From Nevskia sp. (GTDB lineage Bacteria; Pseudomonadota; Gammaproteobacteria; Nevskiales; Nevskiaceae), in NCBI GenBank assembly GCA_031291075.1, contig JARLJS010000151.1, forward strand, positions 124,001 through 188,000: a DNA stretch of 64,000 nucleotides, read 5' to 3'. The translations under genes were made by a program, and so were the position numbers. Positions 2,978 through 57,162 of the stretch are shown here, piece by piece. Below the pieces are notes generated by a model. That model searched no databases. It saw only the letters and a program-made list of their open reading frames with translations, and was not told the origin of the DNA. How positions within the stretch are numbered: the first letter of the stretch is position 1; every line of letters begins with the position of its first letter.

Positions 2978-2996
2978 TCAACATCAATGTTGACTA
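2978..2996. promoter_or_regulatory. Shared 19-bp operator, site 1
   Basis: TCAACATCAATGTTGACTA. The right half TGTTGACTA matches the consensus exactly, and the inner 16 bp form a perfect inverted repeat. It ends 15 bp before the start of the esterase at 3012, close enough to block transcription or initiation. Confidence 0.75.
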
Positions 2997-3011
2997 TTTA
3001 ATGATTCGTGC

Positions 3012-4052
3012 ATGAAAATGCCCGGGGCCCTGCGGGGCGACAAGGTCGATCCCGGTCCTACGCCGATGAATGCAGAAAACGCGGAGCCCTTCATCACCAG
3101 GCGCGGGCAGCCGGTTGGGCTGCGCAGCAGGATGATCCTGTGGGCGATGCGATGGGTTCTTCGCCCGATGCTGCTGCGGCTCATCGAGGGAAGCCGCAAG
3201 AAGATAGCGCGGACCCAGCTGCGCACGCTGGCGCAGAGGTGTTCCGATTCGGCCGGATTGAACATCGCGTACCGGATGATCGGGCGCGCTCCGGGCCACC
3301 TGATCGGTACCTTCGAGCCTTCCGAGGATCCGTTCGTCCTGTGGCTGCATGGCGGGGCGTTCATACTACCGGCGGCGCCCTCGGTGCACTTTACGGCCAT
3401 CGCGCTATTGTGCCGCGACCTTGGCGCCAGCGCGTTTCTGCCGGACTACCGGCTGGCGCCGGCCAATCCCTTCCCGGCTGGTCTCGACGATTGCGACAGA
3501 GCGTATCGCGCTCTTCTGGCCGGCGGCATTTCCCCGCACCGGATCGTGCTTGGCGGTGATTCGGCCGGTGGCAACCTGGCGTTGGGATTGCTGCAGAGAA
3601 TCCGCAAGGCCGGTCTGCCGAATCCTGCGTGCGCGGTCATGTTATCGCCGGTCACCGACCTGTCCCGCGTCGGCGGACTGCCTTCGCGAACCGGGGTGAT
3701 GAAGAGCGATCCCATCCTGCCGGCCGAAGCGCTCTATCGCATGGACGAACTGTACTCGGGCGGCGCGGACTCCAGCGACCCGGAACTGTCGCCCCTGTTT
3801 GCCGACTGCACCGGCTTTCCGCCGCTCTATCTTATCGCCAGCGACAACGAAGTCCTGCTGGACGATTCCGTGATGTTCGCCAGGCGCGCGCATGCGGACG
3901 GCGTATCGGTGCGCTGTGACATCTGGCCCAAGTTTCCTCACGCTTTCCTGTTGTTCGAGAAACTGTTTCCCGAGGTCGGTCCCGCTCGCGCAGACATCGT
4001 CGAGTTCGCGGAAACCTCGCTCGCCGCGGCACAGGGAGGTTTTCAACCCTGA
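3012..4052 (+). CDS. HSL-family alpha/beta hydrolase (esterase/lipase)
   Basis: A 346-residue serine hydrolase. It has the oxyanion motif HGGA at 113-116, nucleophile S184 in GDSAGG, a late Asp in LLDDS and a catalytic His in FPHAF. No signal peptide is evident, so it is probably cytoplasmic. It resembles the C-terminal half of the hemerythrin fusion upstream (shared DYRLAP and GDSAGG blocks), so the two are paralogous. The first ATG is 3012; ATG 3066 is an alternative, since neither has a strong ribosome site. Operator site 1 lies just upstream. The last 10 bases overlap the convergent regulator gene. Likely role: hydrolysis of esters or lactones of the catabolic substrate. Confidence 0.8.
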   Translation: MKMPGALRGDKVDPGPTPMNAENAEPFITRRGQPVGLRSRMILWAMRWVLRPMLLRLIEGSRKKIARTQLRTLAQRCSDSAGLNIAYRMIGRAPGHLIGTFEPSEDPFVLWLHGGAFILPAAPSVHFTAIALLCRDLGASAFLPDYRLAPANPFPAGLDDCDRAYRALLAGGISPHRIVLGGDSAGGNLALGLLQRIRKAGLPNPACAVMLSPVTDLSRVGGLPSRTGVMKSDPILPAEALYRMDELYSGGADSSDPELSPLFADCTGFPPLYLIASDNEVLLDDSVMFARRAHADGVSVRCDIWPKFPHAFLLFEKLFPEVGPARADIVEFAETSLAAAQGGFQP

Positions 4053-5065
4053 GCTGGCCTCGTGCCGCCGCGGTTCCTCAGGAAAGATCCCGCGAGCAAC
4101 GGCAGCACGACCAGGCGATCGAGTAGTTGGGCAACCTGCTCCGCCGTCTGCCGCTCGGGATTACGCAGCCACCATGCAAGAATCTCCACCGTCGCACTCA
4201 CCCCGTGGGCCGCTCCGAGGTCGACCGGCAGCCAGTCGCTGATCCGCACACGGCTGTGCTCCTGCGCCAGCCGGACGAATTCCTGGCGCAGTGCGCCGGC
4301 GGCGCCGCCGGTCAGAAGGGATGTCCACACCGCACGCTGCTGGCTCACGCACTGGCAGAGCAGTAGGCTCGCCGAGCGAGGGTCCGCTCCTTCCACCGCC
4401 GGCATCAGCATCGCCATCACTCTCCCGACCTGTTCGGCGGCGACTTCGTTGAGCAGGTCCGCCTTGGACGCATGGTGCCGGAAGAACGTCGCATACCCGA
4501 TACCCGCCGCCGCCGCGATGTCGCGTACCGTGATCTGGTCGAACTGCTTGCGCGCGAGCAATGAAACCAGCGCACGGTGCAGCGACCGACGGGTGCGCAA
4601 GGTGCGCGCATCGGTCATGACGTCGCCGCCCTGACTGGCCTGCTGCCGCACGGCAGCAGGCCGCGACCTGGTCGGCAGATCCAGAACCCTGCGGCGCCAG
4701 CGCGAGGCCGTATCGCGGTGAATTCCGCAGCGCTCGGCGGCCCTGCTCAAGGACAGCCCCTCGTGCATCGCCTGTGTGAAGCTGGTCCAAGCGGATTTGC
4801 GGTGAATGCCGTTGAGTGCGGTGCCGGTTGCCGCGCTGAAGGTGCGCTTGCAGGCGCCGCAACGCCAGCGCTGCTGGCCACGCACCCGGCCGTGGCGCGC
4901 CGGATGCTCCACGCCGCAATGCGGACACTCGCCCGGGGCCGCTGCCGGGGTCGATGCATTGGCAGCCACCGGATTCGCCGCCAGCACGTTCCGCAGCTGC
5001 TCGCGCTGCCGCGGCGTCAGTTCCTGCATTCGTTCCAGCAGTTTCGGGAAGGCGTTGGCGTCCAT
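4043..5065 (-). CDS. Zinc-ribbon/HTH (IS1595-type transposase N-terminus) fused to TetR regulator
   Basis: One uninterrupted 340-residue frame. Residues 47-72 form a zinc ribbon (C47-x2-C50, C69-x2-C72), followed by a helix-turn-helix around 100-128 (LSLSRAAERCGIHRDTASRWRRR). This is the layout of the DNA-binding N-terminus of IS1595-family transposases; no DDE catalytic domain follows. Residue 150 is a Met that begins a complete TetR-type protein of 191 residues, with HTH DIAAAAGIGYATFFRHHASK. It may be one fusion protein, or the TetR part may also start at 4618, where the ribosome site is weak. It is divergent from the TonB operon and is the obvious candidate to control it. Confidence 0.75.
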   Translation of the reverse strand: MDANAFPKLLERMQELTPRQREQLRNVLAANPVAANASTPAAAPGECPHCGVEHPARHGRVRGQQRWRCGACKRTFSAATGTALNGIHRKSAWTSFTQAMHEGLSLSRAAERCGIHRDTASRWRRRVLDLPTRSRPAAVRQQASQGGDVMTDARTLRTRRSLHRALVSLLARKQFDQITVRDIAAAAGIGYATFFRHHASKADLLNEVAAEQVGRVMAMLMPAVEGADPRSASLLLCQCVSQQRAVWTSLLTGGAAGALRQEFVRLAQEHSRVRISDWLPVDLGAAHGVSATVEILAWWLRNPERQTAEQVAQLLDRLVVLPLLAGSFLRNRGGTRPAQG

Positions 5066-12580: not shown

Positions 12581-13747
12581 TCAATAAGATTTGGGAAGCC
12601 CGAGGACCTTTTCGGCCAGGAAATTGAGAATCATGTGCGGCGTCACCGGCGCGATCCTGGGGATCAGCACTTCGCGCAGCAGGCGCTCCACGTGGAATTC
12701 CTGGGCGTAGCCCATCCCGCCCAGCGTGAGCATCGCGGTGTGACAGGCCTCGAAGGCGAATTCGCCGGCCAGGTACTTGCCCGCGTTGGCCTCCACGCCG
12801 CAATCCAGGCCCTGGTCGAACAGCTGCGCCGCCTTCATCACCATCAGGTTGGCGGCTTCGAGCTGCGCCCAGCACTTGGCCAAGGGATGCTGGATGCCCT
12901 GGTTCATGCCGATGGGGCGGTTGAAGACGATGCGCTCGCGCGCGTAGCTGGCCGCTCGCGTGATGGCGGCACGTCCGATGCCGATGGCCTCGGCGGCGAC
13001 CAGCACGCGCTCCGGGTTCAGGCCGTGGAGCAGCAGGCGGAAGCCCTCTCCCTCGGCGCCGATGCGATCCTCTTCGGGCACCCGCAGGTCCTGGATGAAC
13101 AGCATGTTCGAATCGACGGCGTGCCTGCCCATCTTGTGGATCAGCCGAACCTCCACCTTCGAGCGGTCGAGGCTGGTGTAGAACAGCGACAAGCCGTCGG
13201 TCTTGCGCTTGACCTGGTCCAAGGGGGTGGTGCGCGCCAGCAGCAGCATCTTGTTGGCGACCTGGGCGGTCGAAATCCAGATCTTTTCGCCGTTGACCCG
13301 GTAGCCCCCTTCGCAGCGCTCCGCGCGCGTCTTGATCTCGGTGGTGTTGAGGCCGGCGTTGGGTTCGGTCACGGCAAAGCAGACCCGGTCCTCGCCGCGT
13401 ACCACCGCGGGCAGTATCCGTTCCTTCTGGGCACCGGTGCCGAACAACACCACCGGCTGCACGCTGAACACCGGGATGTGGACGCTCGAGGCCCCGCTCA
13501 TGCCGGCCCCCGATTCGGCGATGGCCTGCATCATCACGGCCGCCTCGGTGATGCCCAGTCCCGAGCCGCCGTAGGCCGCCGGCATGGCGATGCCGAGCCA
13601 CCCGCCGTCGAGCAAGGCGCGGAAGAACTCCTGCGGAAATGCCGCGTCGCGATCGTGCTGCAGCCAATACTCGTCCGGGAAGCCGGCGCACAGCTTGAGG
13701 ATGGCATCCCTGATGCTCTGCTGATCGGCGGTCAATGCATGGTCCAT
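12581..13747 (-). CDS. Acyl-CoA dehydrogenase
   Basis: A 388-residue FAD-dependent acyl-CoA dehydrogenase of normal length. Markers: CFAVTEPNAGLNTTEIKTRA (FAD-binding strand), RYxVNGEKIWIS-type segment, GFRLLLHGLNPERVLVAAEAIGIG, and GGMGYAQEFHVERLLREV near the C-terminus, including the likely base region. It would introduce an alpha,beta double bond in an acyl-CoA. It is first in a three-gene minus-strand operon with the CitE-like and CoA-transferase-like genes. Operator site 2 lies 21 bp upstream of the start. Confidence 0.92.
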   Translation of the reverse strand: MDHALTADQQSIRDAILKLCAGFPDEYWLQHDRDAAFPQEFFRALLDGGWLGIAMPAAYGGSGLGITEAAVMMQAIAESGAGMSGASSVHIPVFSVQPVVLFGTGAQKERILPAVVRGEDRVCFAVTEPNAGLNTTEIKTRAERCEGGYRVNGEKIWISTAQVANKMLLLARTTPLDQVKRKTDGLSLFYTSLDRSKVEVRLIHKMGRHAVDSNMLFIQDLRVPEEDRIGAEGEGFRLLLHGLNPERVLVAAEAIGIGRAAITRAASYARERIVFNRPIGMNQGIQHPLAKCWAQLEAANLMVMKAAQLFDQGLDCGVEANAGKYLAGEFAFEACHTAMLTLGGMGYAQEFHVERLLREVLIPRIAPVTPHMILNFLAEKVLGLPKSY

Positions 13748-13768
13748 GGGGCGGCTGCCGGTAGAGAC

Positions 13769-13787
13769 TGGTCAACACTGCTGTGTA
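13769..13787. promoter_or_regulatory. Shared 19-bp operator, site 2
   Basis: TGGTCAACACTGCTGTGTA, in the divergent gap between the acyl-CoA dehydrogenase operon (21 bp away) and the CaiB-type gene (63 bp away). The core CAACA-C-TGCTG fits the consensus on both halves, so it could control both directions. Confidence 0.7.
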
Positions 13788-13850
13788 GTAATATAGCTGA
13801 AGGCGCTATAGTGACGCACCTCGGCAGGCGTGTTCGGATGGAGGATCACC

Positions 13851-17385: not shown

Positions 17386-18765
17386 TCACACAAGCTTGCG
17401 CGGCTGGCCCGCTCCCACGTAGCGCGCCAGGTTGCGATGCAGGTTGCTGACCGATTGCTCGCGGTACGGGTTGGGCAGGGTGCCGCGGAAGCCGCCGGAG
17501 CGCATGCCCTGCTGCACCGCCGCCATGTTGGAGAAGTCCTGGGGCAGCACGCTCAGCCAGCGTGCGTCGCCCAGCGGCGTGTACTCCCACTCGGTCTTCG
17601 GCTCCTGTCCACTGGGGAACAGCTCGTACACCGCGACCTCGAAGATACACTTGTTGGGATCGTAGCCGTGCGGGCGCGCGCTATAGCACAGGGCATTGTT
17701 CACGGCGTGCCCGATCTGGAAATTGGGGAAGATCTGCCAGGCCGTGCCGCTGCTGGCCACGTGTGAAGGTTCCACCGTGGGCCAGATCACCCCGCGCGAG
17801 GCATCGTCACGTCGCGCCGAGTCGAGCCAGTGCTTGAGCACCTGGTCGGCCGGAGTGCCTTCCGGCAGGTCGTCGACCAGCCGCCGCGCCGCGTCCGCCA
17901 GTGTCTGGGTGGTGACGGCGTTGACGTGCTTCATGATGTAGTCCTGCATCTCCGCGGTAGCCACGCGCGGGTCCTTGCCGGAACCCAGACGGAGCTTGGC
18001 CGAGGTCTCCTCCAGCCCCTTCGGCGCGTCGTAGCCGATGTGGCTGTGCTTGTCCTGGGCCCGTGCCCAACCCGTGTAGATGCCGAACTGCATGAACTCG
18101 GGGTGCGTCGCCGGCACGTGGTAGGTCTCGTAAAAGGCCTCCATGGCAACCTTCCAGTTGCAATCGACGTGCAGCCACTTGCGCCACTTGCAGCGCATGT
18201 TCTGCAGCTGGAACGGGTCCAGCATCGAGGCGGCGGGTTCCAGGTAGCTGCGCAGGGGCTCGCTACGTGGATCCAGGTTGATCCAGATCCAGCCGCCCCA
18301 GGTGTCGACCTTGACTTCGCCCAGGCGCGTGCGCTCTTCCGTCAACGCGCCCTTCCAGTCCTCGGCCATCGGCGCGTGGGTGCAGCGGCCCTCGAGGTTG
18401 TAGGTCCAGGCATGGTAGCCGCAGACAAAGCTCCGCTTGCTGCCGCAGGCCCGCTTGTCGCCGGCCGGGGTATCCACCAGCCGGCGGCCGCGATGCGAAC
18501 AGACGTTGTGGAAGGCGCAAAGCCTGTCTGCCGCCGCCCGCACGATGATGACGGAGTCGTCGAGCACCTCGTAGGTCAGGAAGTTTCCGACCTCCGGAAT
18601 CTCCTCGACGCGGCCAACCTGCAGCCACACCTTGCGCCAGAGCCTGTCGCGTTCGGCGCGCAGATAGTCCTCGGAAACGTAAGCCTCCACCCCTACGGTT
18701 ACCGCCTCCGCGAGGTCCTCGGCCGCCTGGACCGGTGCCTGGTTCAACTCTGCAGTTTCGCCCAC
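17386..18765 (-). CDS. Rieske non-haem iron oxygenase, alpha subunit
   Basis: A 459-residue ring-hydroxylating-type oxygenase. Rieske cluster ligands are C89-x-H91 (CSHRG) and C115-x2-H118 (CGYHAW). The mononuclear iron site is in NWKVAMEAFYETYHVPATHP, with H216 and H221. No beta subunit, ferredoxin or reductase is adjacent; the ferredoxin reductase at 36469 could serve, though a ferredoxin gene is not visible in the window. Likely role: monooxygenation or dioxygenation of the catabolic substrate. Operator site 3 lies 61 bp upstream, shared with the divergent IclR gene. Confidence 0.92.
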   Translation of the reverse strand: MGETAELNQAPVQAAEDLAEAVTVGVEAYVSEDYLRAERDRLWRKVWLQVGRVEEIPEVGNFLTYEVLDDSVIIVRAAADRLCAFHNVCSHRGRRLVDTPAGDKRACGSKRSFVCGYHAWTYNLEGRCTHAPMAEDWKGALTEERTRLGEVKVDTWGGWIWINLDPRSEPLRSYLEPAASMLDPFQLQNMRCKWRKWLHVDCNWKVAMEAFYETYHVPATHPEFMQFGIYTGWARAQDKHSHIGYDAPKGLEETSAKLRLGSGKDPRVATAEMQDYIMKHVNAVTTQTLADAARRLVDDLPEGTPADQVLKHWLDSARRDDASRGVIWPTVEPSHVASSGTAWQIFPNFQIGHAVNNALCYSARPHGYDPNKCIFEVAVYELFPSGQEPKTEWEYTPLGDARWLSVLPQDFSNMAAVQQGMRSGGFRGTLPNPYREQSVSNLHRNLARYVGAGQPRKLV

Positions 18766-18826
18766 GATCGCCTCCTCCCGGGGGTAGCGCTGCGCAGGCG
18801 GCTAACTTAGCGCGACCACGTAGTAA

Positions 18827-18845
18827 TAATCAACATGGGTGTCTA
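18827..18845. promoter_or_regulatory. Shared 19-bp operator, site 3
   Basis: TAATCAACATGGGTGTCTA, between the Rieske gene (61 bp) and the IclR gene (72 bp). On the other strand it reads TAGACACCCATGTTGATTA, so the outer TAG and the TGTTGA half are kept while the CANCA half has one change. Confidence 0.65.
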
Positions 18846-18917
18846 GTTACTGGCGCGGGTGCGCCGCCGGAGCGCCGGTGATTGGCCGTATCATGATCGC
18901 CATCACCCATTGATTCG

Positions 18918-25938: not shown

Positions 25939-25961
25939 GTCCGTCTCCATACGCGCTAAAA

Positions 25962-35484: not shown

Positions 35485-35503
35485 TAGACAGCAGTGTTGA
35501 CTA
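35485..35503. promoter_or_regulatory. Shared 19-bp operator, site 6 (best match)
   Basis: TAGACAGCAGTGTTGACTA, closest to the consensus on both halves. It contains TTGACT, which with TAATGT 18 bp later could be a -35/-10 pair, so binding would block the promoter. It lies 110 bp before the START-protein gene. Confidence 0.8.
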
Positions 35504-35613
35504 ACAACGCGCCGACGGGGTAATGTCGATGCCCTCGACGCGCGGGCACCTGGTCAGGCGGTCCTTTCCCACCAATCCTGGGCGCGTCACGATCATCGGA
35601 TTTTGGAGCCGCC

Positions 35614-36267: not shown

Positions 36268-36330
36268 AGCGGGGGCGGCCCGGAGCGCGGTCCGGCGGCA
36301 TTTGCCTTGGGACGTGGGCTCGTACAATAA

Positions 36331-36349
36331 TAAGCAACACTGTTGATTT
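36331..36349. promoter_or_regulatory. Shared 19-bp operator, site 7
   Basis: TAAGCAACACTGTTGATTT with a perfect CAACA-C-TGTTG core, 119 bp before the ferredoxin reductase gene. It follows a TACAAT at 36323-36328 that could be a -10 box, so it would cover the transcription start. Confidence 0.75.
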
Positions 36350-36468
36350 ATGATGTAGTCGAGGACGCGCGCCAGCCGCGCCGCTGCGGAAGGACGAATG
36401 GTTCCAGTGATCTCCATCAACCACGAGCACGAGCTGCGCCGTGCGGTGCGGCTCGCCGGGCGGCGTAC

Positions 36469-39036: not shown

Positions 39037-39137
39037 ATCGAGCCGCACCACGGCGTCGCATCCCGACGGGGGGCTGCGCCAGGCGTGCCGCCGGGCCGGC
39101 GCGGTGTCTTTACAGCGGCACGAGCCGGGTGTGAAAA

Positions 39138-39156
39138 TAGACAGCACTGTTGTATA
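39138..39156. promoter_or_regulatory. Shared 19-bp operator, site 8
   Basis: TAGACAGCACTGTTGTATA, 31 bp before the E1 alpha gene. It overlaps TATAAC (39153-39158), a plausible -10 box, so binding should repress. Confidence 0.78.
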
Positions 39157-39187
39157 ACACGTTCGACGTGCAGGACAGGACCATCGC

Positions 39188-41181: not shown

Positions 41182-41408
41182 GCGTAGAAGTGCGCATCCC
41201 TCAGATCGGCTTTTCGGCGGAGGAGGGCATACTGACGGAATGGCTGGTGGCCGACGGCGCGCGCGTCGAGGCCGGCAAGCCCTTGTATACGCTGGAGCTC
41301 GACAAATCGGTGCAGGAAGTGGAGGCACCCGCCTCGGGTACGCTGAAGATTCATGCCGTCACGGGTGAAACGTATCGGGTGGGCGCGCTGGTCGCGGAGA
41401 TCGTTTGA
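41178..41408 (+). CDS. Free-standing lipoyl/biotinyl carrier domain
   Basis: A 76-residue protein that is only a lipoyl domain. The modified lysine is K43 in LELDKSVQEVEAP, where DK(A/S) is the lipoylation signature, and ETYRVGALVAEIV closes the fold. A normal E2 adds a subunit-binding domain and a catalytic acyltransferase core of over 300 residues; none is present here. ATG 41178 overlaps the E1 beta stop. It could be a mobile acceptor arm for E1, with reoxidation by an E3 encoded elsewhere. Confidence 0.88.
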   Translation: MSVEVRIPQIGFSAEEGILTEWLVADGARVEAGKPLYTLELDKSVQEVEAPASGTLKIHAVTGETYRVGALVAEIV

Positions 41409-41431
41409 GCCTGAGGGTGGGAGGATAGGTC

Positions 41432-42859
41432 ATGAACGGCATTGCGCAGTCCCCCTGGCCGGAGAGCTGGAGCGTTCTCGATCACGGCATTCGCAGCGGA
41501 CGCTACACGGATCCAGCGTTTGCGCGGCTGGAACACAATAAGCTGTGGAGCCGGACCTGGCAGGCCGCCGCGAGGCTCGACGAGATTCCGGGGGTGGGCG
41601 ACTTCACCACCTACGACATCGGCGACCAGTCGGTTATCGTCGTGCGGGCCGACGCCGAAACCGTCAAGGTCTACCACAACGTCTGCCCGCACCGGGGCAC
41701 GGCCCTGTCGGCCGGCGGCTGCGGGCATTTCAAGGACGGCAGGATCATCTGTCCGTTCCATGGCTGGCGCTGGGACCTGGGCGGCCGCAATCAGTACGTG
41801 CTCGAACGCGAGCAGTTCCGCGGCGGTCAGTTGCGCGACAGCGACGTGGCCCTGCGCGAAGTCCGGCACGAGGTGTTCGCCGGCTTCGTCTTCATCAATT
41901 TCGACCGCGACGCCATACCGTTCGCTGACTTCATCGCGCCAGTGCGCCAGCTGATCGAGGACCTGGCAATCGGGGAGATGCACCACTACTGGTGGAAGGC
42001 CCTGCCGGTGCCGGCCAACTGGAAGGTGGCGCAGGAAGCCTTCTTCGAGGGCTACCATGTCCCGGCGACGCACCCCCAGCTTGAGCCCTCCGCGGCCGAA
42101 ATCATCTACGACGGCATTCCCGGTCCCGACAGCGAGGCGGGGTTCCAGCATCGCAACGTCGTCTACGAGGTGTTCGAGCACGGCCACGGCCGCTTCTACG
42201 GCGGCAAGAAGACGCCTATGGCCGGCCACGTCAAGCGCCAGGACGACATCGACCCGGTGGACGCCATGGCCGCGCGACTCAACCTCCTGGTGGAGGGTAT
42301 GGACGCGATGGTGCTGAAGGAGGACGTGGACCTGGTCCGGTCGCTCAAGGGCAGGCCGATCCCGGAAGGCTCCAACCTCGGCGCCGAATACGTCAAGGCG
42401 CTGTACGGCACCGCCATGGCCGAACGACGTCCCATGCCCAAGCCCGTGCCCGAGATCCTCGGCATGTGGGGCGGCGAAATCTACATCTTTCCCAACCTGA
42501 TGATCCTGCCCCAGGCAGGCAACGCCATGATCTACCGTGTGCGGCCGGACGGCTTCGATCCGGATCGCTGCATTTTCGAGATCTTTTCGACCAGGACTTA
42601 CCCGGCGGCGGCCAAGCCGCCGCGGGCGGTGGTACAGACGGTCACCGACATCCGCGATCCGGAGCAGGTGCTACTGATCCCGCGCCAGGATCTCAACAAC
42701 ATCCCCCGGATGCAGAAGGGTCTGCACTCAAGGGGCTGCAAGCAGATCTGGCTTGCCGCCCAGGAGGAAAAGCTGATCCTCAACATGCACCAGGAGCTGG
42801 ACCGCTATCTGCGGGAAGGCGCGGCGCCGGTGTCCGCGGCTGCAACAGTTGCCGCCTGA
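41432..42859 (+). CDS. Rieske non-haem iron oxygenase, alpha subunit
   Basis: A 475-residue oxygenase. Rieske ligands C85-x-H87 (CPHRG) and C107-x2-H110 (CPFHGW); mononuclear iron His H209 and H214 in NWKVAQEAFFEGYHVPATHP. GGGAGG lies 10 bases before the ATG. It has the same architecture as the oxygenase at 17386-18765 but differs substantially in sequence, so the two probably act on different intermediates. It follows the lipoyl gene by 23 bases and should be transcribed from the site 8 promoter. Confidence 0.92.
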   Translation: MNGIAQSPWPESWSVLDHGIRSGRYTDPAFARLEHNKLWSRTWQAAARLDEIPGVGDFTTYDIGDQSVIVVRADAETVKVYHNVCPHRGTALSAGGCGHFKDGRIICPFHGWRWDLGGRNQYVLEREQFRGGQLRDSDVALREVRHEVFAGFVFINFDRDAIPFADFIAPVRQLIEDLAIGEMHHYWWKALPVPANWKVAQEAFFEGYHVPATHPQLEPSAAEIIYDGIPGPDSEAGFQHRNVVYEVFEHGHGRFYGGKKTPMAGHVKRQDDIDPVDAMAARLNLLVEGMDAMVLKEDVDLVRSLKGRPIPEGSNLGAEYVKALYGTAMAERRPMPKPVPEILGMWGGEIYIFPNLMILPQAGNAMIYRVRPDGFDPDRCIFEIFSTRTYPAAAKPPRAVVQTVTDIRDPEQVLLIPRQDLNNIPRMQKGLHSRGCKQIWLAAQEEKLILNMHQELDRYLREGAAPVSAAATVAA

Positions 42860-43311: not shown

Positions 43312-43327
43312 CGACACCGGCGATAAC

Positions 43328-43346
43328 TAATCATCAGTGTTGTCGT
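43328..43346. promoter_or_regulatory. Shared 19-bp operator, site 9
   Basis: TAATCATCAGTGTTGTCGT, core CATCA-G-TGTTG. It lies 98 bp before the wax ester synthase gene and 17 bp from the FNR-type box, so the two signals share one divergent promoter region. Confidence 0.72.
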
Positions 43347-43444
43347 GTATGCCGTTTTTGTGCCATAAAGGCGCGGGCGGGAGGAGGTCCGGCCGCGTCG
43401 CCGGGCGGCGGTTGTGGCCTAAACCAGCGGCTTGAGAGTCCATA

Positions 43445-46892: not shown

Positions 46893-47954
46893 TCACGCCG
46901 CCTTGGGCAGGGTGTGCCGGTAACGTTGAGGCGTCGACCCGGTCCAGCGCTTGAAGGCGCGTCCGAAGCTGGACTGCTCCGCATAACCCAGCATCACCGC
47001 CACATCGTCGAGCTTGATTTCCCCTTGCTCGAGGTACGCTTTCGCCAGCTCGATGCGCTGCCGCTCCAGGATGTCGGAAAAGCGCAGGTCGTGTTCGCTC
47101 AGCGTGGCCTGCAGCGTTCGCACCGAGCGCCCCAGCTTCTTTGCGCAGTGCTCGATCGAGCAGGTCCCCGCAGGCAGGGCGCCACGGACGTAGTCCTCGA
47201 CCCGTTCCACGATGCTCCGGCGCGAGGCGGTCCTGACCCGTTCCAGATAGCCGCCGAGCAACCTGAACAGCAGGCGGTTGGCGCTTGCGATGCTGCAGTT
47301 CATCGCGGCCGCCGGGAAAGCGATGGCGTTGACGGGCGACTTGGCGCGGAAGGCGCATCCCAGGAGCGTGCCGATCTCGCCAAGCCCCTTTTGACGAACG
47401 CTCGCGGTGAGACTCACGGAGCTGGGCTTGAAGGCCTTGCCGCCTAGCTGGCGCAGCAGCTTGAGAATCATCAGCGCGCCCTTGAGCTGGGCCTGATCGG
47501 ACCGGCCCAGGTCCGCTTCGACCCGCCAGCGCAGCTCGGCAGTGTCGCAACCCTCAGCCACTTCCATGACCACCAGCGGGCAATGCACAACGGGCAGGAA
47601 GTCGGCGTAGCACTGCAGCGCATCGCGCAGGGTCGCCGCCGAGCGGCACAGCGTGGTGATCGAGCCGAACACGTCGGGGTTCTGCAGCGCACCCAGGTGC
47701 AGGCCGAACAAGGGGTCATTGAAGGCATGGCTGCATTCCTCCAGCAGCGCCGCCACCGCCTTGGAGTCGACGAACAGGTCGGGATCGCGCAACGCAAGGG
47801 GGTCGATAGCGTGCCTTTCAAGAAGGCCGCGCGGCTCGGCGCCGCGGGCGCGGACCAGCTCGCCGAAGCCGCTGAGGTTGCCCGCGCGCATCTGTCTCTC
47901 GACCGGCATCGAGTCCAGCGGGCCTTCCAGGGTGAAGAAATGTCCGTCGCGCAT
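46893..47954 (-). CDS. AraC-family regulator (OruR-like)
   Basis: A 353-residue regulator. A long N-terminal ligand domain of the type found in OruR-like proteins (LFGLHLGALQNPDVFGSITTLCRSAATLRDALQCYADFLP) precedes the HTH pair SIEHCAKKLGRSVRTLQATLSEHDLRF and LDDVAVMLGYAEQSSFGRAFKRWTGSTPQRYR. It heads the acyl-CoA dehydrogenase pair operon and is divergent from the DUF35/thiolase operon. Two shared operators lie in the gap. GAGAG precedes the ATG. Confidence 0.9.
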   Translation of the reverse strand: MRDGHFFTLEGPLDSMPVERQMRAGNLSGFGELVRARGAEPRGLLERHAIDPLALRDPDLFVDSKAVAALLEECSHAFNDPLFGLHLGALQNPDVFGSITTLCRSAATLRDALQCYADFLPVVHCPLVVMEVAEGCDTAELRWRVEADLGRSDQAQLKGALMILKLLRQLGGKAFKPSSVSLTASVRQKGLGEIGTLLGCAFRAKSPVNAIAFPAAAMNCSIASANRLLFRLLGGYLERVRTASRRSIVERVEDYVRGALPAGTCSIEHCAKKLGRSVRTLQATLSEHDLRFSDILERQRIELAKAYLEQGEIKLDDVAVMLGYAEQSSFGRAFKRWTGSTPQRYRHTLPKAA

Positions 47955-48090
47955 CGTCTTGATCTCTCATGGATGACCCGGGCGGCGGCACGCCGCTTCG
48001 ACGGCGCATGTCGCCACAGGGCCAGGGCCGACACGGTCCCGCGGCTGCTGCATACCGGGGACGACAGATGGTACGCCCGGCGTCATGACT

Positions 48091-48109
48091 AATCAACAGC
48101 GTTGACCGA
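48091..48109. promoter_or_regulatory. Shared 19-bp operator, site 10
   Basis: TAATCAACAGCGTTGACCG, core CAACA-G-CGTTG. It is in the divergent gap, 136 bp from the AraC gene and 123 bp from the DUF35 gene. Confidence 0.68.
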
Positions 48110-48138
48110 ACAAGGGAGGCGCCGCGGCGCCCCATTTA

Positions 48139-48157
48139 TAAACACCACTGTTGTATG
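48139..48157. promoter_or_regulatory. Shared 19-bp operator, site 11
   Basis: TAAACACCACTGTTGTATG, core CACCA-C-TGTTG, 75 bp before the DUF35 gene and 48 bp centre-to-centre from site 10. One site may serve each divergent promoter. Confidence 0.72.
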
Positions 48158-48232
48158 ATAATCACGTTTATGCGATAAAGGCGCGACGCCGGCCCGATTG
48201 GACGTGCTCGTGCCGGGCGCCTGGAAGGGATC

Positions 48233-48655
48233 ATGAAAAAGGTGGAGGCCATGACGGTGTCGCGTGCCCTGCCGCGGCTGGACGCTGACAACCGCAGCTT
48301 CTGGACCGGCGGCAAGGATGGTCAGCTCAGGCTCATGCAGTGCCAGGACTGCCGGACGTTCATTCATCCGCCGCGTCCAGTCTGCCGCAGCTGCCTGTCG
48401 GAACGGGTGGAGTCCGTGGCGGTGGCGGGAACCGGTGTCGTCGATACCTTTACGGTGAACCACCAGAAGTGGCACAAAGCCATGGAGGTGCCGTACGTCA
48501 TCGCCCGCGTCGCGCTGGACGGCGCGCCGGGCGTGTTCCTGACCACCAACATCGTCGGCTGCCCCGTCGACTCGGTCGACGTCGGCGACCGCGTGCGGGT
48601 GAAGTTCGAGCAGCAGGACGACGTGTTCCTGCCCCTGTTCGAGAAGATCGGTTGA
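48233..48655 (+). CDS. DUF35 OB-fold protein with zinc ribbon (ChsH2-like)
   Basis: A 140-residue protein. The N-terminal zinc ribbon has C37, C40, C51 and C54; an OB-fold follows (GTGVVDTFTVNHQKWHKAMEVPYVIARVALDGAPGVFLTTNIV). In steroid side-chain pathways DUF35 proteins pair with Ltp2-like thiolase-fold proteins to form retro-aldolases. The next gene encodes exactly such a partner and overlaps its stop. GGAAGG precedes ATG 48233; ATG 48251 is a possible alternative. Confidence 0.88.
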   Translation: MKKVEAMTVSRALPRLDADNRSFWTGGKDGQLRLMQCQDCRTFIHPPRPVCRSCLSERVESVAVAGTGVVDTFTVNHQKWHKAMEVPYVIARVALDGAPGVFLTTNIVGCPVDSVDVGDRVRVKFEQQDDVFLPLFEKIG

Positions 48656-49815
48656 TGGCGGCGGCCGAGGCCTACATCACCGGTGTCGGCCAGTCGGCCG
48701 TCGGCGCGGGTCAGACCCGGCACCCCCTGTTGTTGACGCTCGACGCGACGCGGGAGGCCTTGGACGAAGCCGGGTTGACGATCGCGCAGATCGACGGCGT
48801 CTCCACTTATCCCGGCCGCGCTCAAGGCTACCTGGGCTTCTCGCCGGTGGGCGCGGACGAGCTGATCGATGCGTTGGGGATCCGGGCGACCTGGTACGCG
48901 GGCGGCAGCGAAATCAGTTCGCAGTTGGGCGCTGTGGTGGCAGCGGCCGCCGCCGTGCGCGCCGGGTTGGCCCGGCACGTCCTCTGTTTTCGGACGGTTT
49001 ACGAGGCGGCGGCGCTGGCCCGTCCGGAGGAGTATCCGCCGCTGCGGCGTGAGCGAGTCGACGGTCAGGCGCAGTGGTTCGCGCCGTTCAACGCCACCTC
49101 GCCTGCGAACTGGACCGCCCAGTACGCGATGCGCCACGTCAAGCGTTACGGGTTGACGCGCGAGCAGCTGGCACAGATCGCGTTGACCGCGCGCGCCAAT
49201 GCGATGCTCAACCCGCGGGCCCTGGTCAGGCAGCCGCTGACCATGGATGAGTACCTGGCCGGGCGCATGATTTCGACCCCGCTGTGCGTCTACGACTGCG
49301 ACCGGTTTACCGATGCGTCGACCGTGCTCATCGTCTCCGCCGGCGCCGCGCTCGACGAGGTTCGCTGTCAACCCGTCCGCATCGCGGCGATGGCGGGCAC
49401 GGTGGAACGCCATAGCTGGGACCAGGCGGAGTGGATGGCGTCTTACCCGACCGGCCGCGATCTGTGGAAACGCACGGACTACCGCGTCGAGGACGTCGAT
49501 ACGGTTCAGCTCTACGATGGTTTCAGCTTTTTCGTGCTGACCTGGCTGGAAGCCCTCGGTTTCTGCGATGTGGGAAGTGGGGGACGCTTCGTCGAAGGCG
49601 GCAAACGGATTGCCCGCGACGGGGAGCTGCCGCTCAACACCTTCGGCGGCCAGATCGGGGCCGGCCGCCTGCACGGCTTCGGTTTCGCCCACGAAGCCGT
49701 CGTCCAGCTGCGGGGGCGGGCGGGCGAGCGCCAGATCGGGGGCGATCCGCGTGTTGCGGTCTGCACCTCCGGTGGCGGACCACTGGCCACGGCGCTGCTG
49801 CTGGCGCGGGACTGA
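48655..49815 (+). CDS. Ltp2-like thiolase-fold protein (probable aldolase)
   Basis: A 386-residue thiolase-fold protein. The usual nucleophile motif (CSTG/CSSG) is replaced by GGSEISSQ (83-90), so the catalytic Cys is missing. The C-terminal motif NTFGGQIGAGRLHGFGFAHE matches the lipid-transfer/Ltp2 branch (NTHGGQ-type). Together with the DUF35 partner it probably cleaves a beta-hydroxyacyl-CoA by retro-aldol reaction rather than thiolysis. Coupled to DUF35 by overlapping stop and start. Confidence 0.86.
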   Translation: MAAAEAYITGVGQSAVGAGQTRHPLLLTLDATREALDEAGLTIAQIDGVSTYPGRAQGYLGFSPVGADELIDALGIRATWYAGGSEISSQLGAVVAAAAAVRAGLARHVLCFRTVYEAAALARPEEYPPLRRERVDGQAQWFAPFNATSPANWTAQYAMRHVKRYGLTREQLAQIALTARANAMLNPRALVRQPLTMDEYLAGRMISTPLCVYDCDRFTDASTVLIVSAGAALDEVRCQPVRIAAMAGTVERHSWDQAEWMASYPTGRDLWKRTDYRVEDVDTVQLYDGFSFFVLTWLEALGFCDVGSGGRFVEGGKRIARDGELPLNTFGGQIGAGRLHGFGFAHEAVVQLRGRAGERQIGGDPRVAVCTSGGGPLATALLLARD

Positions 49816-49820
49816 GACTG

Positions 49821-50570
49821 ATGACGACCATCGAGCAGCTACCCGGGTTCCGACGGCGCATCCGCATCACTGCGGGAGCCGGATGGGTGCGCGGCGAGGT
49901 GGAGGACGACTTCCACTGCATGCAGGTGACGCTGCGTCACGCCCAGGGCGTCGTCACGGCGATGGAGCCGGTGATGGAGCGTGCACCGTGGACCACCTGC
50001 CCGGGAGCGGTGGCGCAGCTGAGCGCGACCTTTGCCGGCATTGAGCTGGACCGCTTCGCCTTGCGCGGGGCAAAGTCGGAGAACTGCACCCATCTGCATG
50101 ACCTGGCACTGCTTGCGGTAGCGCACGCGGGGGACATCGAGCCCATCGTCTACGACATCCTGGTGTCGGATCCTGTCGATGGTTGGCGCGATATCGAACT
50201 GCGCCGCAACGGCGTGCCGCTGCTGGGCTGGATCGAGCGGAACGGCGTCATCACCGAGCCGGCCGAACTGTCGGGCCGGAGGCTCGACCAGTTGCGCCCG
50301 TGGATCGAGTCCCTGGATCCGGCGCGGCAGGAGGCGGCGCGGCTGCTGCGCTGGGGCGCCATTCTCGGCCACGGGCGTACCATTCCGATGGAGCGGCAAT
50401 CGGATGCGCGCCGCATGCCTCCCAATTGCTACACCTTCCAGCCGCAGCGCGTGGCGGCTGCCACGCGCTGCGGCGCCATACGCGACTTCAGTCGGGGGCC
50501 GGCCAAGCCCCTGGACCGCGCTCCCTACACCGGCGGCCACGACCGAGCGATTCCATACCTTATTACATGA
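49821..50570 (+). CDS. DUF2889-family protein
   Basis: A 249-residue protein of the DUF2889 type. It has an N-terminal beta-rich half (RRRIRITAGAGWVRGEVEDDFHCMQVTLRHAQG), the CTHLHDLALLAVAHA motif and a C-terminal MPPNCYTFQP segment. The Cys-x2-His-x2-Asp group suggests a metal site, but no activity is established to my knowledge. It directly follows the Ltp2-like gene, so it may act in the same acyl-CoA step. Confidence 0.72.
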   Translation: MTTIEQLPGFRRRIRITAGAGWVRGEVEDDFHCMQVTLRHAQGVVTAMEPVMERAPWTTCPGAVAQLSATFAGIELDRFALRGAKSENCTHLHDLALLAVAHAGDIEPIVYDILVSDPVDGWRDIELRRNGVPLLGWIERNGVITEPAELSGRRLDQLRPWIESLDPARQEAARLLRWGAILGHGRTIPMERQSDARRMPPNCYTFQPQRVAAATRCGAIRDFSRGPAKPLDRAPYTGGHDRAIPYLIT

Positions 50571-50647
50571 GGTTTGCACCGTGAACATGAACGACGGCTT
50601 GATGATGACATCCCGCAACTGCGTCAGCGCTGCCCGAGGAGAGCGGC

Positions 50648-52171
50648 ATGCTTAATTCCGCGCGGGAACCTGCGGCCGTGCCGACGGTGTGCCACTGGGT
50701 TGGCGGCAAGGCGCAGGGCGGGACAGCGGATCGTGGCGGCGACGTTTTCAATCCGAGCACCGGTCGGGTCACCGCTCGCGTGCCGTTCGCCTCGGCCGAG
50801 GAACTGAATGCCTGCGTGGCGGTGGCCCAGGCCGCCTTCGCGGGCTGGGCGGGCACGCCGCCGCTGCGCCGCTCGCGGATCTTGTTCCGCTTCCGCCAGC
50901 TGCTGGAGGAAGCCGGCGACCAGCTAGCGGCGGTGATCTCCCGCGAACACGGCAAGACGCTGAGCGACGCGCGCGGCGAGATCGTGCGCGGCCTGGAGGT
51001 GGTCGAGTTCGCCTGCGGGATTCCCGATCTGATCAAGGGCGAATACAACGAGAACGTCGGCACCGGCGTCGACGCCTACAGCATCCGCCAGCCATTGGGC
51101 GTCGTCGCGGGCATCACGCCGTTCAACTTCCCGGCGATGGTGCCGCTGTGGATGTTTCCGGTGGCGCTGGCCTGCGGCAACACCTTCATTCTCAAGCCGT
51201 CCGAACGGGATCCTTCCGCCTCCGCCCTGATGGCGGAGCTGCTGCAGAAGGCGGGCCTGCCCGACGGTGTCTTCAACGTCCTGCACGGCGACCGGGCGGC
51301 GGTCGAGGGCCTGCTGCAGCATCCGGACATCGCCGCCATCAGCTTTGTCGGATCCACGCCGGTGGCGCGCGTCGTGCACCGGGAGGGTACGCTGCACGGC
51401 AAGCGCGTCCAGGCCCTGGGCGGCGCCAAGAACCACATGGTCATCCTGCCCGACGCCGATCTGGACGATGCGGTTGAAGCCCTGCTTGGAGCGGCCTACG
51501 GTTCCGCCGGCGAGCGTTGCATGGCGATCTCCGTGGCCGTGGCGGTCGGTGACGCCTGTGCCGACCGGCTGATCGAGCGCCTGGCGCCCAGGGTGACGGC
51601 CTTGCGCGTCGGCCCGCCTACCGATGCCGGCACCGAGATGGGGCCGTTGATCACCGGCGAGCACCGCCGCAAGGTCTGCGACTACATTGCCGGCGGCGTC
51701 GACGAGGGAGCCCGCTTGCTGGTGGACGGCCGGCCCGGGTACCAGGACGCACCGGGCGGGTTTTTCCTGGGAGGCTCGCTGTTCGACCGGGTCCAGCCGC
51801 AGATGCGGATCTACAAGGAGGAGATCTTCGGCCCGGTGCTCGGCATCGTGCGCGTGCCGGATCTCGATGCAGCGATCCGCTTGATCAATACCCACCCCTA
51901 TGCCAACGGCACCGCCGTATTCACCCGCAGCGGCGCCGCGGCACGGGCATTCACCTCCGCCATCGAGGTGGGCATGGTGGGCGTCAACGTGCCTTTGCCG
52001 GTGCCGGTCGCGTTTCACAGCTTTGGCGGGTGGCGAAACTCCCTCTTCGGCGACCATCACATCTATGGGCGGGAGGGCGTGCGTTTCTATACACGCCTGA
52101 AAGCGATTACCCAGCGTTGGCCGCGCGAGCTCGACAAGAAGGCCGAGTTCGCGATGCCGACGATGAAGTGA
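50648..52171 (+). CDS. mmsA: Methylmalonate-semialdehyde dehydrogenase (CoA-acylating)
   Basis: A 507-residue aldehyde dehydrogenase of the MmsA/IolA type. The catalytic Cys is C291 in AGERCMAIS. The usual general-base Glu is Asn (N262 in GGAKNHMVI), a hallmark of CoA-acylating members. GITPFNFPAMVPLWMFPVALACGN is also diagnostic. It converts methylmalonate or malonate semialdehyde to propionyl- or acetyl-CoA. Here it may process a C3 unit from side-chain cleavage, or serve general valine metabolism. GAGGAG lies 7 bases before the ATG. Confidence 0.92.
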   Translation: MLNSAREPAAVPTVCHWVGGKAQGGTADRGGDVFNPSTGRVTARVPFASAEELNACVAVAQAAFAGWAGTPPLRRSRILFRFRQLLEEAGDQLAAVISREHGKTLSDARGEIVRGLEVVEFACGIPDLIKGEYNENVGTGVDAYSIRQPLGVVAGITPFNFPAMVPLWMFPVALACGNTFILKPSERDPSASALMAELLQKAGLPDGVFNVLHGDRAAVEGLLQHPDIAAISFVGSTPVARVVHREGTLHGKRVQALGGAKNHMVILPDADLDDAVEALLGAAYGSAGERCMAISVAVAVGDACADRLIERLAPRVTALRVGPPTDAGTEMGPLITGEHRRKVCDYIAGGVDEGARLLVDGRPGYQDAPGGFFLGGSLFDRVQPQMRIYKEEIFGPVLGIVRVPDLDAAIRLINTHPYANGTAVFTRSGAAARAFTSAIEVGMVGVNVPLPVPVAFHSFGGWRNSLFGDHHIYGREGVRFYTRLKAITQRWPRELDKKAEFAMPTMK

Positions 52172-52200
52172 CGTGGCAGTCGTAAACTGAACATGGCCGA

Positions 52201-52923
52201 GTGGCGGATATGCCAGACCAAACAACGCAAATGACGGGCCGGAAGACGCAGCGGCGCCGACCGGAACCCGAGCGGACCAGGACCGCGATTCTCGATGCGG
52301 CGTGTACGCTGCTCGCCAAGGATGGACCGGAAGGCTTGAGCGTGTCCCAGGTGGCGCGGCTGGCCAAGGTCAACCGGGGCACGGCGTATCAGCACTTCCA
52401 GACGCGCGAGCAACTGCTGGACGCCACCACGACCTGGGTGAGCGAAAAGCTGCGGCGCTCCGTCTTCGGCGGATCCTCCAGCGGCGAGCCGCCGGTGCTG
52501 CTGGACGATGCGCAGGGCGTCGCGCGGCGCATGGCCGAGTTCGCCATGGAAAACCCGGAGCTGGGGCGCGTCTGGTTGTTCGAGGTGCTCAATTCGAACC
52601 GGCCGGGCAGTGATCCGTTCTGGAACCAGTTCAAGGGCTCGCTGGAGAAGTTTGCGGGCTCCGGGCACGCGCAGCCCGGCATCGATGTCGAAGTGCATGC
52701 CATGATCATGCTGATCGGGACCTTGCTGTGGCCGATCTTCGTCCGCGCCGATGCCCGCACCGCCAAGGACCGCAGCAGGCTGGTCGAGCGCTTTTCAAAC
52801 GAGATGCTGCGCCTGAGCTTCTTCGGCACGATGCGGCCTGAGCGGTTTCCGGAGCTGGAGGCCACGCTGCGGACGGGGCCCAAAGTGGGCGCGGTATCTG
52901 GCGGCTCGCCGGACAAGCCGTGA
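52201..52923 (+). CDS. TetR-family transcriptional regulator
   Basis: A 240-residue TetR regulator. The N-terminal HTH (residues 28-70) reads ILDAACTLLAKDGPEGLSVSQVARLAKVNRGTAYQHFQTREQLLDA. The C-terminal ligand domain contains HAMIMLIGTLLWPIFVRADART. GTG 52201 opens the frame and ATG 52210 is equally possible. It is the only stand-alone TetR in the window. TetR operators are often 15-20 bp palindromes, so it is a prime candidate for the shared 19-bp operator, though no copy lies by its own promoter. Confidence 0.9.
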   Translation: MADMPDQTTQMTGRKTQRRRPEPERTRTAILDAACTLLAKDGPEGLSVSQVARLAKVNRGTAYQHFQTREQLLDATTTWVSEKLRRSVFGGSSSGEPPVLLDDAQGVARRMAEFAMENPELGRVWLFEVLNSNRPGSDPFWNQFKGSLEKFAGSGHAQPGIDVEVHAMIMLIGTLLWPIFVRADARTAKDRSRLVERFSNEMLRLSFFGTMRPERFPELEATLRTGPKVGAVSGGSPDKP

Positions 52924-55265: not shown

Positions 55266-55282
55266 TTCGCCGCGGAGGCCGA

Positions 55283-56839
55283 TCAGGCCTTGACGCCGGT
55301 GAACTGGAATGAACCCATGAACCCGGCCTTGACCTTGCCGCTCATCTCCTTGCCGCTGACGGTGCCGCTGAAGGTCAGCTTCATTTTCATCGGCTTGGAG
55401 ATGTGGTTGATCCAGGTGATTTGATTGCCGTCGATCTGGATGTCGCTGATTGGCGTGGTGGTCCCCTGGCCGGACTGGGTTCCGGTCAGCCGGCCATCGA
55501 CATATTCCAGCGCCAGCACGGTGGCCATCGGGCCGGTCGGGCTCTTCACGGTCACATTCCAGGTGCCGTCGAGGGTAACCGGTTGTTGGTTGTCTTGAAC
55601 GGCCGTTTCGGGCCTTGCCTTGGATGTGCTGGGACGGATGCCCGGGCGCGTATAGATGGGCAGGGTTTCCCATCCGCGCACGGTCGACGTCGGCGAGAGC
55701 CTGGCGCGATCCAGGTCGACGTCCCAGTACGGAAAGCGCTTGAGTAGTTCCTCCAGCGCGACGCGCCCTTCCAGCCGTGCCAGTACGGCACCCAGGCAGG
55801 TGTGTACACCGTAGCCGAAGGTGAGGTGCCGCTTCGTCAGCGTGCGATTGATGTCGAAGCGGTCGCCGTCGGGAAAGCAACGCTCGTCCCGATTGGCGGA
55901 GCCGACCAGGAACATCATCACGCTGCCCTTGGGAATGGTCTGCCCACGCACTTCGACGTCGCGATTGACGTAGCGCGCGATGTGCGGCGGCGGCGGTTCG
56001 AAGCGCAGGATTTCCTCGATGCCCTGTGGAATCAGCGTGGGGTCCTCCACCAGCTGCCGGCGCTGATCGGGGTGCTCGGCCAGCACCTTGCCGGTCCAGC
56101 CGATCAGGCGCGTGGTGGTTTCGTTGCCGGCCCCGGCAAGGACGTTGATCAGGGTCAGCATCTCCTGGCGGGCGAGCTTGCGGACGGTGCCGGTCTCGTC
56201 CTTGAACTCGGCGTTCAGCATCTCGGTCATCACGTCGTCGGACGGATGCTTGGCCCGCCAGTCGATGTAGTCCTCGAAGGCTTCGCCGGAGTAGTTGCTC
56301 AGCACGAACTCCATCGGCTTGCCGGACTCGGTGCGTATGCTGTCGTCGACGAGGTTCTTGACCGCCGCCTGATCCTCTTCCGGGATGCCCAGCAGCATGC
56401 CGATCACGCGCATCGGCATCTTGCCCCCCAGTTCGGCGATCAGGTCGAAGTTGTCCGAGCCGACCAGCGGATCCAGGCACTGCGCACAATAGTCACGCAC
56501 CTTGGCCTCGAGCCCGTTGAGCCGCTTGGGCGTGAACATGCGGGCCAGCATTGCGCGATGCGCGGTGTGGATGGGCGGATCCTCGAAGATCAGGATGCCC
56601 GGGGGGAACTCGGCGTTGGCCTTGATCAGTTCCAGGATGGCTCCGCGTCCCGAGATGAAGGTCTCGCGGTCGAACAGGCCGCGCTCCACGTCCTCGTAGA
56701 GGCTCACCGCGTAAAAGTCATGTTCCTTGTTGTAGTAGAGCGGGGCCTCCTCGCGCAGGCGCCGGAACACCGGATAGGGATTGGCGCTGATCTCGGGGCT
56801 GTAGGGGTCGTAATAAACGCTGCTGGCGTGGGTATTCAT
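55283..56839 (-). CDS. Cytochrome P450 with C-terminal 97-residue domain
   Basis: A 518-residue protein. Residues 1-400 are a bacterial class I P450: I-helix AGAGNETT (235-242), ExxR as E276-R279 (EILR), and haem ligand C348 in FGYGVHTCLG. A linker (401-420) leads to residues 422-518, which match the C-terminal domain of the DapB-like protein at 15088-16524 (DGTW, QSGQGT, ITWINH, MSGKVKAGFMGSF). Bacterial P450s of this group seldom carry such a tail. It probably hydroxylates the substrate using electrons from the ferredoxin reductase at 36469. Divergent from the FadE gene with operator site 12 between. Confidence 0.92.
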   Translation of the reverse strand: MNTHASSVYYDPYSPEISANPYPVFRRLREEAPLYYNKEHDFYAVSLYEDVERGLFDRETFISGRGAILELIKANAEFPPGILIFEDPPIHTAHRAMLARMFTPKRLNGLEAKVRDYCAQCLDPLVGSDNFDLIAELGGKMPMRVIGMLLGIPEEDQAAVKNLVDDSIRTESGKPMEFVLSNYSGEAFEDYIDWRAKHPSDDVMTEMLNAEFKDETGTVRKLARQEMLTLINVLAGAGNETTTRLIGWTGKVLAEHPDQRRQLVEDPTLIPQGIEEILRFEPPPPHIARYVNRDVEVRGQTIPKGSVMMFLVGSANRDERCFPDGDRFDINRTLTKRHLTFGYGVHTCLGAVLARLEGRVALEELLKRFPYWDVDLDRARLSPTSTVRGWETLPIYTRPGIRPSTSKARPETAVQDNQQPVTLDGTWNVTVKSPTGPMATVLALEYVDGRLTGTQSGQGTTTPISDIQIDGNQITWINHISKPMKMKLTFSGTVSGKEMSGKVKAGFMGSFQFTGVKA

Positions 56840-57162
56840 CGGGATCCGGGGCCGGAAGGAGGACGGTGCGCCGCTCTAAAATTCACGTCAGAATAGTGAC
56901 ATGAAATTTTTTTGGCCGTCAAGCCGTACCGCCCGATCTTTTTTTTGTGGTCAACAACGATGTTGACTACGAGCGGGGCAGCCGTTAGCTTAGCAGTGTC
57001 CAGCCGTCCAGGCAGGCCGCCGGTAGCCGGATGCGCCGGCGAGGCTTCCGGCGACTTTGGAGCTCGTGAAATGACGGGCCAGCGGCTGCGAGGGCCGGAG
57101 GGGCGTCCACGCACCTCCGTTGTGCGCGTGAATCAATCACAGTATCTGGCAGTCACCTCACA
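56840..57162. other. Intergenic region between divergent P450 and FadE genes (323 bases)
   Basis: Low-GC patches at 56880-56950 (including a TTTTTTT run near 56940) flank operator site 12. TTGACT at 56964-56969 with TAGCTT 17 bp later could be a plus-strand promoter for the FadE gene. The rest shows no gene, RNA or repeat that I can support. Confidence 0.6.
56951..56969. promoter_or_regulatory. Shared 19-bp operator, site 12
   Basis: TCAACAACGATGTTGACTA, perfect right half TGTTGACTA. It lies 111 bp from the P450 start and 193 bp from the FadE start, and overlaps the possible -35 TTGACT. Confidence 0.75.

Follow-up and report, generated by a model that had tools for sequence, protein, structure and literature searches.

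The stretch of DNA described here (64,000 bp from Nevskia sp., below called the window) is part of contig G000:C28 (195,082 bp, below C28) of a draft genome of 5.65 Mb. It contains twelve copies of an imperfect palindrome situated before catabolic and regulatory genes, as well as the gene of a TetR-type regulator at 52201-52923, whose family, termed TetRF in the following, is proposed as the reader of these sites. Among the products of the genes behind these sites are an esterase, a CoA-transferase, a wax ester synthase and a P450, together with acyl-CoA dehydrogenases, short-chain dehydrogenases and Rieske oxygenases; a 2-oxoacid dehydrogenase E1 pair and a ChsH2-like/thiolase pair are likewise encoded there.

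All twelve palindromes were found at the coordinates given by an earlier note on this DNA, and all of them lie, as it had claimed, in gaps between genes (codon-score calls made in this analysis) and outside the genes of the list used for the matrix scan (Table 1). With up to three mismatches, the string given in that note matches eight of the twelve places, the sites at 25962, 29264, 48091 and 56951 requiring more; this search returned 12 strand-matches in the window versus 0.11 expected, a count that was not attained in any of 100 shuffles. A symmetric matrix of 23 bp, derived from the twelve sites, gives them the highest scores of the window (20.1-32.1 bits), the best non-shifted other place scoring 12.3 bits, and in a leave-one-out analysis at most 11 positions outscore any of the twelve. 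The fuller consensus is approximately AATAAWCAACAnTGTTGWTTATT, with 97% C at position -5; the site named 48091 is in register at 48090. Two of the gaps hinge on which start codon is taken: in its longest frame (25045-26472), the AraC gene would span the site at 25962, where the codon-score call starts the gene at 25950, and a TTG start at 36343 would fall within the site at 36331, where the call starts the gene at 36469.

Table 1. Palindromic sites and associated features of the window (positions in bp; site scores from the 23-bp matrix)
Feature	Position	Strand	Score	Context or assignment
Site 1	2976-2998	.	30.2 bits	before esterase at 3012 (+)
Site 2	13767-13789	.	25.1 bits	between acyl-CoA dehydrogenase 12581-13747 (-) and CoA-transferase (+)
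Site 3	18825-18847	.	28.3 bits	between Rieske oxygenase 17386-18765 (-) and IclR 18918 (+)
Site 4	25960-25982	.	27.0 bits	between AraC (-) and short-chain dehydrogenase (+); 21 bp ahead of called AraC start
Site 5	29262-29284	.	26.6 bits	before short-chain dehydrogenase at 29433/29445 (+) and the genes behind it
Site 6	35483-35505	.	29.7 bits	before START-domain protein 35614 (+)
Site 7	36329-36351	.	32.1 bits	before ferredoxin-reductase-like gene
Site 8	39136-39158	.	30.3 bits	before E1 alpha/beta, lipoyl and Rieske genes 39188-42859
Site 9	43326-43348	.	27.5 bits	between small gene (-) and wax ester synthase/DGAT (+)
Site 10	48088-48110	.	22.0 bits	first of double site between AraC 46893-47954 (-) and 48233 (+)
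Site 11	48137-48159	.	26.9 bits	second of double site
Site 12	56949-56971	.	20.1 bits	between P450 55283-56839 (-) and fused acyl-CoA dehydrogenase 57163 (+)
Zinc-ribbon/helix-turn-helix/TetR fusion	4043-5065	-		not TetRF
IclR regulator	18918-19748	+		rejected as general motif reader; probable target in the window's clade
Likely operon: ChsH2-like OB protein, thiolase-like, unknown, aldehyde dehydrogenase, TetRF	48233-52923	+		gaps 72, 78 and 30 bp with GTG start 52201
TetRF regulator (window paralogue)	52201-52923	+	PF00440, 47.3 bits (cut-off 24)	proposed reader of the sites

The sites continue beyond the window. C28 holds 25 sites above 15 bits, from 27,055 to 180,960 and thus over 155 kb, versus none in ten dinucleotide shuffles, and the twelve of the window are among them. 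Although 91% of this stretch is called coding, all 25 fall between called genes; each is faced by the 5' end of at least one gene, with 33 called island genes faced in all. Exact copies of CAACANTGTTG occur eight times in the genome, all on C28, one of them (C28:95,046, 10.9 bits) within a called gene. The 11-bp core at one mismatch is not confined to the contig (54 places versus 23 for the reversed pattern; among 50 listed places, 24 are on C28 and 26 elsewhere), but the longer pattern TANNCAACANTGTTGNNTA at two mismatches has all 20 of its genome matches there (control: 3). The earlier note had described a 12-site regulon with every site before catabolic genes; one regulon is supported, but twelve is about half of its sites, and its targets are not all catabolic, as the IclR gene and two AraC genes are faced by sites too.

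Concerning the proposed reader, the genome possesses two TetRF paralogues with 64% identity, the window copy and one at C28:102,969-103,649. In a quick tree, the window copy falls into a paralogous clade with a Sinimarinibacterium copy (L169) and two Solimonas copies, and the other groups with the second Sinimarinibacterium copy (L162; support 89). The recognition-helix residues VNRGTAY.HF are invariant in 52 of 52 aligned TetRF proteins, so that all copies should read the same operator. The monomer model of the window protein has a TetR-like fold with a C-terminal ligand/dimer domain; it comprises ten helices and is all-helical except for two single-residue bridges (mean predicted local distance difference test score 85.6, predicted template modelling score 0.77). 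Of 355 Foldseek matches in the PDB (E at most 0.001), most of the best 50 are named as regulators of the TetR type (these 50: E 2.5e-06 to 3.0e-05, query template modelling scores 0.37-0.60); the closest among those listed include HapR, RutR and AvaR1, at modest scores, and say nothing firm about the ligand.

The distribution of the motif follows that of TetRF. Among 85 genomes of the order, 11 contain at least nine motif matches and the rest at most six, similar to the control range of 0-8; all 11 motif-rich genomes have TetRF, which otherwise is found in 2 of 74. A class-wide search, with at most seven candidates scored per listed genome, revealed no TetRF besides that of the own genome in 369 genomes; loci from named genomes were therefore used instead, namely the best 80 of 139 from one scan (Solimonas, Sinimarinibacterium, Steroidobacter, Zhongshania, Halieaceae, Sphingobium, Novosphingobium and others). 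A site at most 300 bp upstream of the TetRF match, scoring above 14 bits on the window-derived matrix, is present in 40 of these 80 loci and in 22 of the 38 alphaproteobacterial ones, and in many sphingomonad loci it is the sole match. Matches are about 29 times denser upstream of TetRF than elsewhere in the loci (0.50 versus 0.017 per 250 bp), and the loci contain 132 of them versus 2 in reversed sequence.

A de novo palindrome search without any input from the window, applied to 58 non-redundant TetRF upstream regions from which loci named as Nevskiales had been dropped, yielded aaTnanCAaCAnTGtTGntnAtt in about half of the regions. Since reversed sequence is no control for a search of this kind, only shifted regions count: those at least 1 kb away gave other patterns at lower likelihood (214 and 137 versus 285). 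In Solimonas soli, in which no IclR was found, the only two sites above 14 bits in 140 kb are situated 0.2 and 2 kb upstream of TetRF. These comparative data assign the palindromes, with a probability of about 0.86, to TetRF as their putative reader. The preference expressed beforehand for the TetR at 52201 is supported at the level of its TetR family, of which the genome has a second copy.

Some of the predicted targets recur in other genomes: in Zhongshania L234 and Steroidobacter L182 a site likewise accompanies the orthologous E1 genes, and in Zhongshania L234 also a wax ester synthase/DGAT relative. Within Nevskiales, site-led C28 genes have led orthologues more often than others (odds 5.5, p 0.0001); with operon members included, the result depends on the gap allowed (60 bp: odds 2.0, p 0.19; 120 bp: odds 16, p 0.0005).

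Several observations weigh against TetRF as the reader. Half of the loci (40 of 80) are without a site within 300 bp upstream, some of these copies being later operon genes, and Solimonas marina has TetRF yet no site above 14 bits in 100 kb. Conversely, a 26-bit site (L017, 2138) stands beside a distant IclR (33%) in genome G047, where no TetRF hit was obtained (E 1e-30). Outside Nevskiales, led orthologues give odds of 1.66 (p 0.20; non-alphaproteobacterial subset: odds 2.7, p 0.02), versions with operon members give p 0.14, 0.21 and 1.0, one version is reversed (odds 0.25, p 0.007), and alphaproteobacterial loci have 0 of 131 led orthologues; as it varies with the definition used, target conservation outside the order is not reliable. 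The window TetRF itself has no site directly before it. If the GTG start at 52201 is right, it closes a run of five genes on one strand that follows the double site 48091/48139; the gene caller preferred a start at 52342, with a gap of 171 bp. In Sinimarinibacterium L169, the double site is kept ahead of a longer run of such genes, again with TetRF last. Autoregulation through the operon is likely. Finally, the IclR at 18918-19748 equals TetRF in how tightly it co-occurs with the motif, and the group-2 operators of IclR regulators, TGRAACAN1-2TGTTYCA in the excerpted survey (PMC8222616), have the same inner AACAnTGTT, with a purine at -5 there and C here.

That this IclR reads the palindrome, TetRF being merely one of its targets, is nevertheless very improbable. 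Its orthologues (at least 52% identity) occur in exactly the 11 motif-rich genomes of the 85, and at 47% or more in 43 of 50 TetRF genomes, which were chosen as 37 with and 13 without a site; a 45% relative in G006, which aligns like the second copy in G073, was taken as a paralogue. Co-occurrence alone cannot choose between the two regulators and slightly favours IclR, as would the site found before IclR in all six genomes of clade A (the window's genome and those with an IclR of 66-72% identity). A de novo search of 23 non-redundant upstream regions of IclR orthologues, however, produced a different palindrome, aATATaGAATantATTCtATATt, with G instead of C at -5, and of the 30 orthologues (out of 43) with upstream sequence, only 3 have a CAACA site of at least 15 bits there. 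With a matrix of aATATaGAATantATTCtATATt, all 26 training loci show a site before IclR, as do, at 22.9-42.5 bits, four of five Nevskiales genomes of clade B (IclR 52-56% identical to that of the window) outside the matrix, although G073, one of the four, had been in the de novo set; the fifth, G066, scores 5.5 at best. Because of this different palindrome and the clade-B sites, IclR is taken to have its own operator in general, a 23-bp element near AATATAGAATnnTATTCTATATA (L251-L262, L264-L277; L140, L012, L013, L014), and the clade-B genomes that possess it are rich in the CAACA motif too. An IclR orthologue was not found in seven TetRF genomes, several of them metagenome-assembled and perhaps incomplete; in six of the seven, the CAACA site is retained ahead of TetRF (18-32 bits; in one case at 340 bp). 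Named strains among the seven include Solimonas soli, Spongiibacter pelagi and Sphingomonas sp. OK281, the last being the one without a site. Six loci of IclR relatives of at most 49% identity, from a phylum sample (at most six candidates scored per listed genome) and one family, score 13.0 bits at best (L246). IclR was dropped as a general reader on account of its own palindrome and of the TetRF genomes without it.

In the six clade-A genomes, the IclR promoter is devoid of the IclR operator (none above 8 bits), and a CAACA site is situated 82-195 bp before the IclR match. This is best read as an exchange of the promoter in the window's clade, by which IclR would have become a TetRF target there. 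A drift of the clade-A IclR in specificity, such that it shares the CAACA operators with TetRF, would be compatible with TetRF as reader but appears unlikely. It would fit the operator content of these six promoters, the absence from C28 of IclR-motif matches above 11 bits other than one that is itself a CAACA site, the divergent DNA-binding part of the clade-A proteins (LRTL and TKLY versus LRAL and TKRY), and the outer AATA/TATT and inner AA/TT that both palindromes have in common. The helix change from Y to H, on the other hand, is also found in IclR L252 of a Steroidobacter genome, which retains the other operator. Clade B and other classes, in which IclR has an operator to itself, possess the CAACA regulon in unchanged form; IclR is thus not needed to explain it.

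It is more improbable still that another regulator of the island (the MarR at C28:78530, an AraC, or one of TetR-A to TetR-E) reads the palindrome. The MarR gene, the TetR-A gene and two of the AraC genes are indeed preceded by sites, but with 33 called island genes facing sites, some regulators are to be expected among the targets. Relatives of these proteins are few in the 80 TetRF loci (AraC-1 in 17, MarR 9, TetR-C 3, TetR-D 2, TetR-E 2, AraC-3 2, AraC-2 1, and TetR-A and TetR-B 0, versus 40 with a site before TetRF), counted at most 10 kb to either side of TetRF, such that a reader elsewhere in the genome would escape. The TetR fusion at 4043, previously ranked as the next candidate, was rejected as well: it belongs to another TetR subfamily (30% identity to TetRF over 63 residues; 55% to TetR-B at C28:70483 and 46% to TetR-D at C28:112071, the kin of its TetR part), and no site above 15 bits precedes it. 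Its zinc ribbon resembles that of IS1-type transposases.

Concerning the mode of action, a TetRF dimer would bind the 23-bp palindrome at no fewer than 25 promoters of the 155-kb catabolic island, among them those of secondary regulators (one IclR, two AraC); a pathway intermediate would bind TetRF and release it, and the island would be switched on together. Whereas the sites, their restriction to promoter gaps of the island and the link of the motif with TetRF genes in other classes are seen by comparison, direct binding, repression rather than activation, and a division of labour between the paralogues are inferred, and the ligand is perhaps an acyl-CoA or a steroid-like intermediate. The overlap with -10 and -35 boxes, from which repression had previously been expected, did not emerge beyond the TTG of the motif itself, and neither the 33 TetR promoters examined nor 12 one-way promoters of the island showed a fixed spacing to the -10 box.

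The island fits the breakdown of a bulky alicyclic or steroid-like compound. Upstream on C28 are situated three KstD-like flavoproteins, all below the NCBIfam cut-offs, three more P450s, an acrylyl-CoA reductase (above the cut-off), a thiolase and a TonB receptor. Both Rieske proteins of the window match PF00848 and no model specific to KshA, the oxygenase of 9,10-seco steroid degradation (part of the C28 genes scanned), and PDB searches with two P450s, one Rieske and one KstD-like protein did not fix the substrate. Within the window, 261-2537 encodes a hemerythrin-like domain fused to an esterase of the hormone-sensitive-lipase type, and 57163-59370 a 735-residue protein of two acyl-CoA dehydrogenase units, the first of which resembles IpdE2.

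Some further TetRF loci exhibit peculiarities. Two from Halieaceae (L216, 9205-10624; L230, 2308-3744) each contain two TetRF paralogues in tandem, and a site lies in the intervening gap. On contig C471 of G001 (L106, 563-1189, minus strand), the TetRF domain ends a 568-residue open frame, the start of which looks, by eye, like a transposase-type helix-turn-helix. Three loci (L165, L197, L241) derive from the CAJCJI record, titled Verrucomicrobia bacterium; their contigs match G001 of the window's genus, and the title looks wrong.

The regulon is real, large and local, and it is a new, not previously named TetR regulon. The open-access papers searched showed no named regulator with this operator, in agreement with the earlier note, which did not recognise the motif as a named one; the motif of KstR is presumably not CAACAnTGTTG. 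According to excerpts of PMC8700777, KstR and KstR2 of actinobacteria are TetR-type repressors of steroid-catabolic genes with palindromic operators, autoregulation being reported for KstR. TetRF shares the regulator type and the palindromic operators, whereas it occurs in another phylum with one or more paralogues per genome; by analogy, its control may work like that of the KstR type. The same excerpts, in which the list of regulators tied to steroid degradation is very short, describe EdcR of Caenibius tardaugens, a TetR repressor with palindromic operators in four promoters of a catabolic cluster. Like TetRF it is a TetR regulator of a proteobacterium, but its operator, TnnCnnTACnAnTnGTAnnGnnA, differs from the TetRF consensus, and TetRF is therefore not EdcR. 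Likewise, the palindromes ATAGGGCCATTG and GCATGCGGGATGC proposed, in the excerpted text of PMC12882949, for the Caenibius TetR EGO55_16300, which adjoins side-chain degradation genes in the bile-salt cluster bsd I, are unlike the TetRF motif. The Zur site of Desulfovibrio, ATGCAACagtGTTGCAT, has the same CAACagtGTTG core in the part of PMC545781 consulted, but belongs to a zinc regulon and differs in its flanks (ATG/CAT).

The pattern might reflect a regulon spanning classes, with several paralogous TetRF proteins that have one recognition helix in common but diverged ligand domains and read the same operators, so that one catabolic island would respond to several inducers. The IclR, which elsewhere seems to regulate itself, would have been captured in clade A, a TetRF operator having replaced its own, and would now be either under TetRF or respecified to the shared palindrome; this wider picture is tentative, and we consider it somewhat less probable than its contrary. 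Some of the groups holding TetRF are known for steroid degradation. With the proposed assignment, an operator-regulator pair that can be tested is at hand for this large and uncharacterised catabolic island, as well as for the many TetRF-bearing genomes of sphingomonads, Steroidobacter, Zhongshania and Halieaceae. The motif may be used as a marker to delimit the pathway and to find its genes, and the exchange of the IclR promoter would constitute a clear case of regulatory rewiring.

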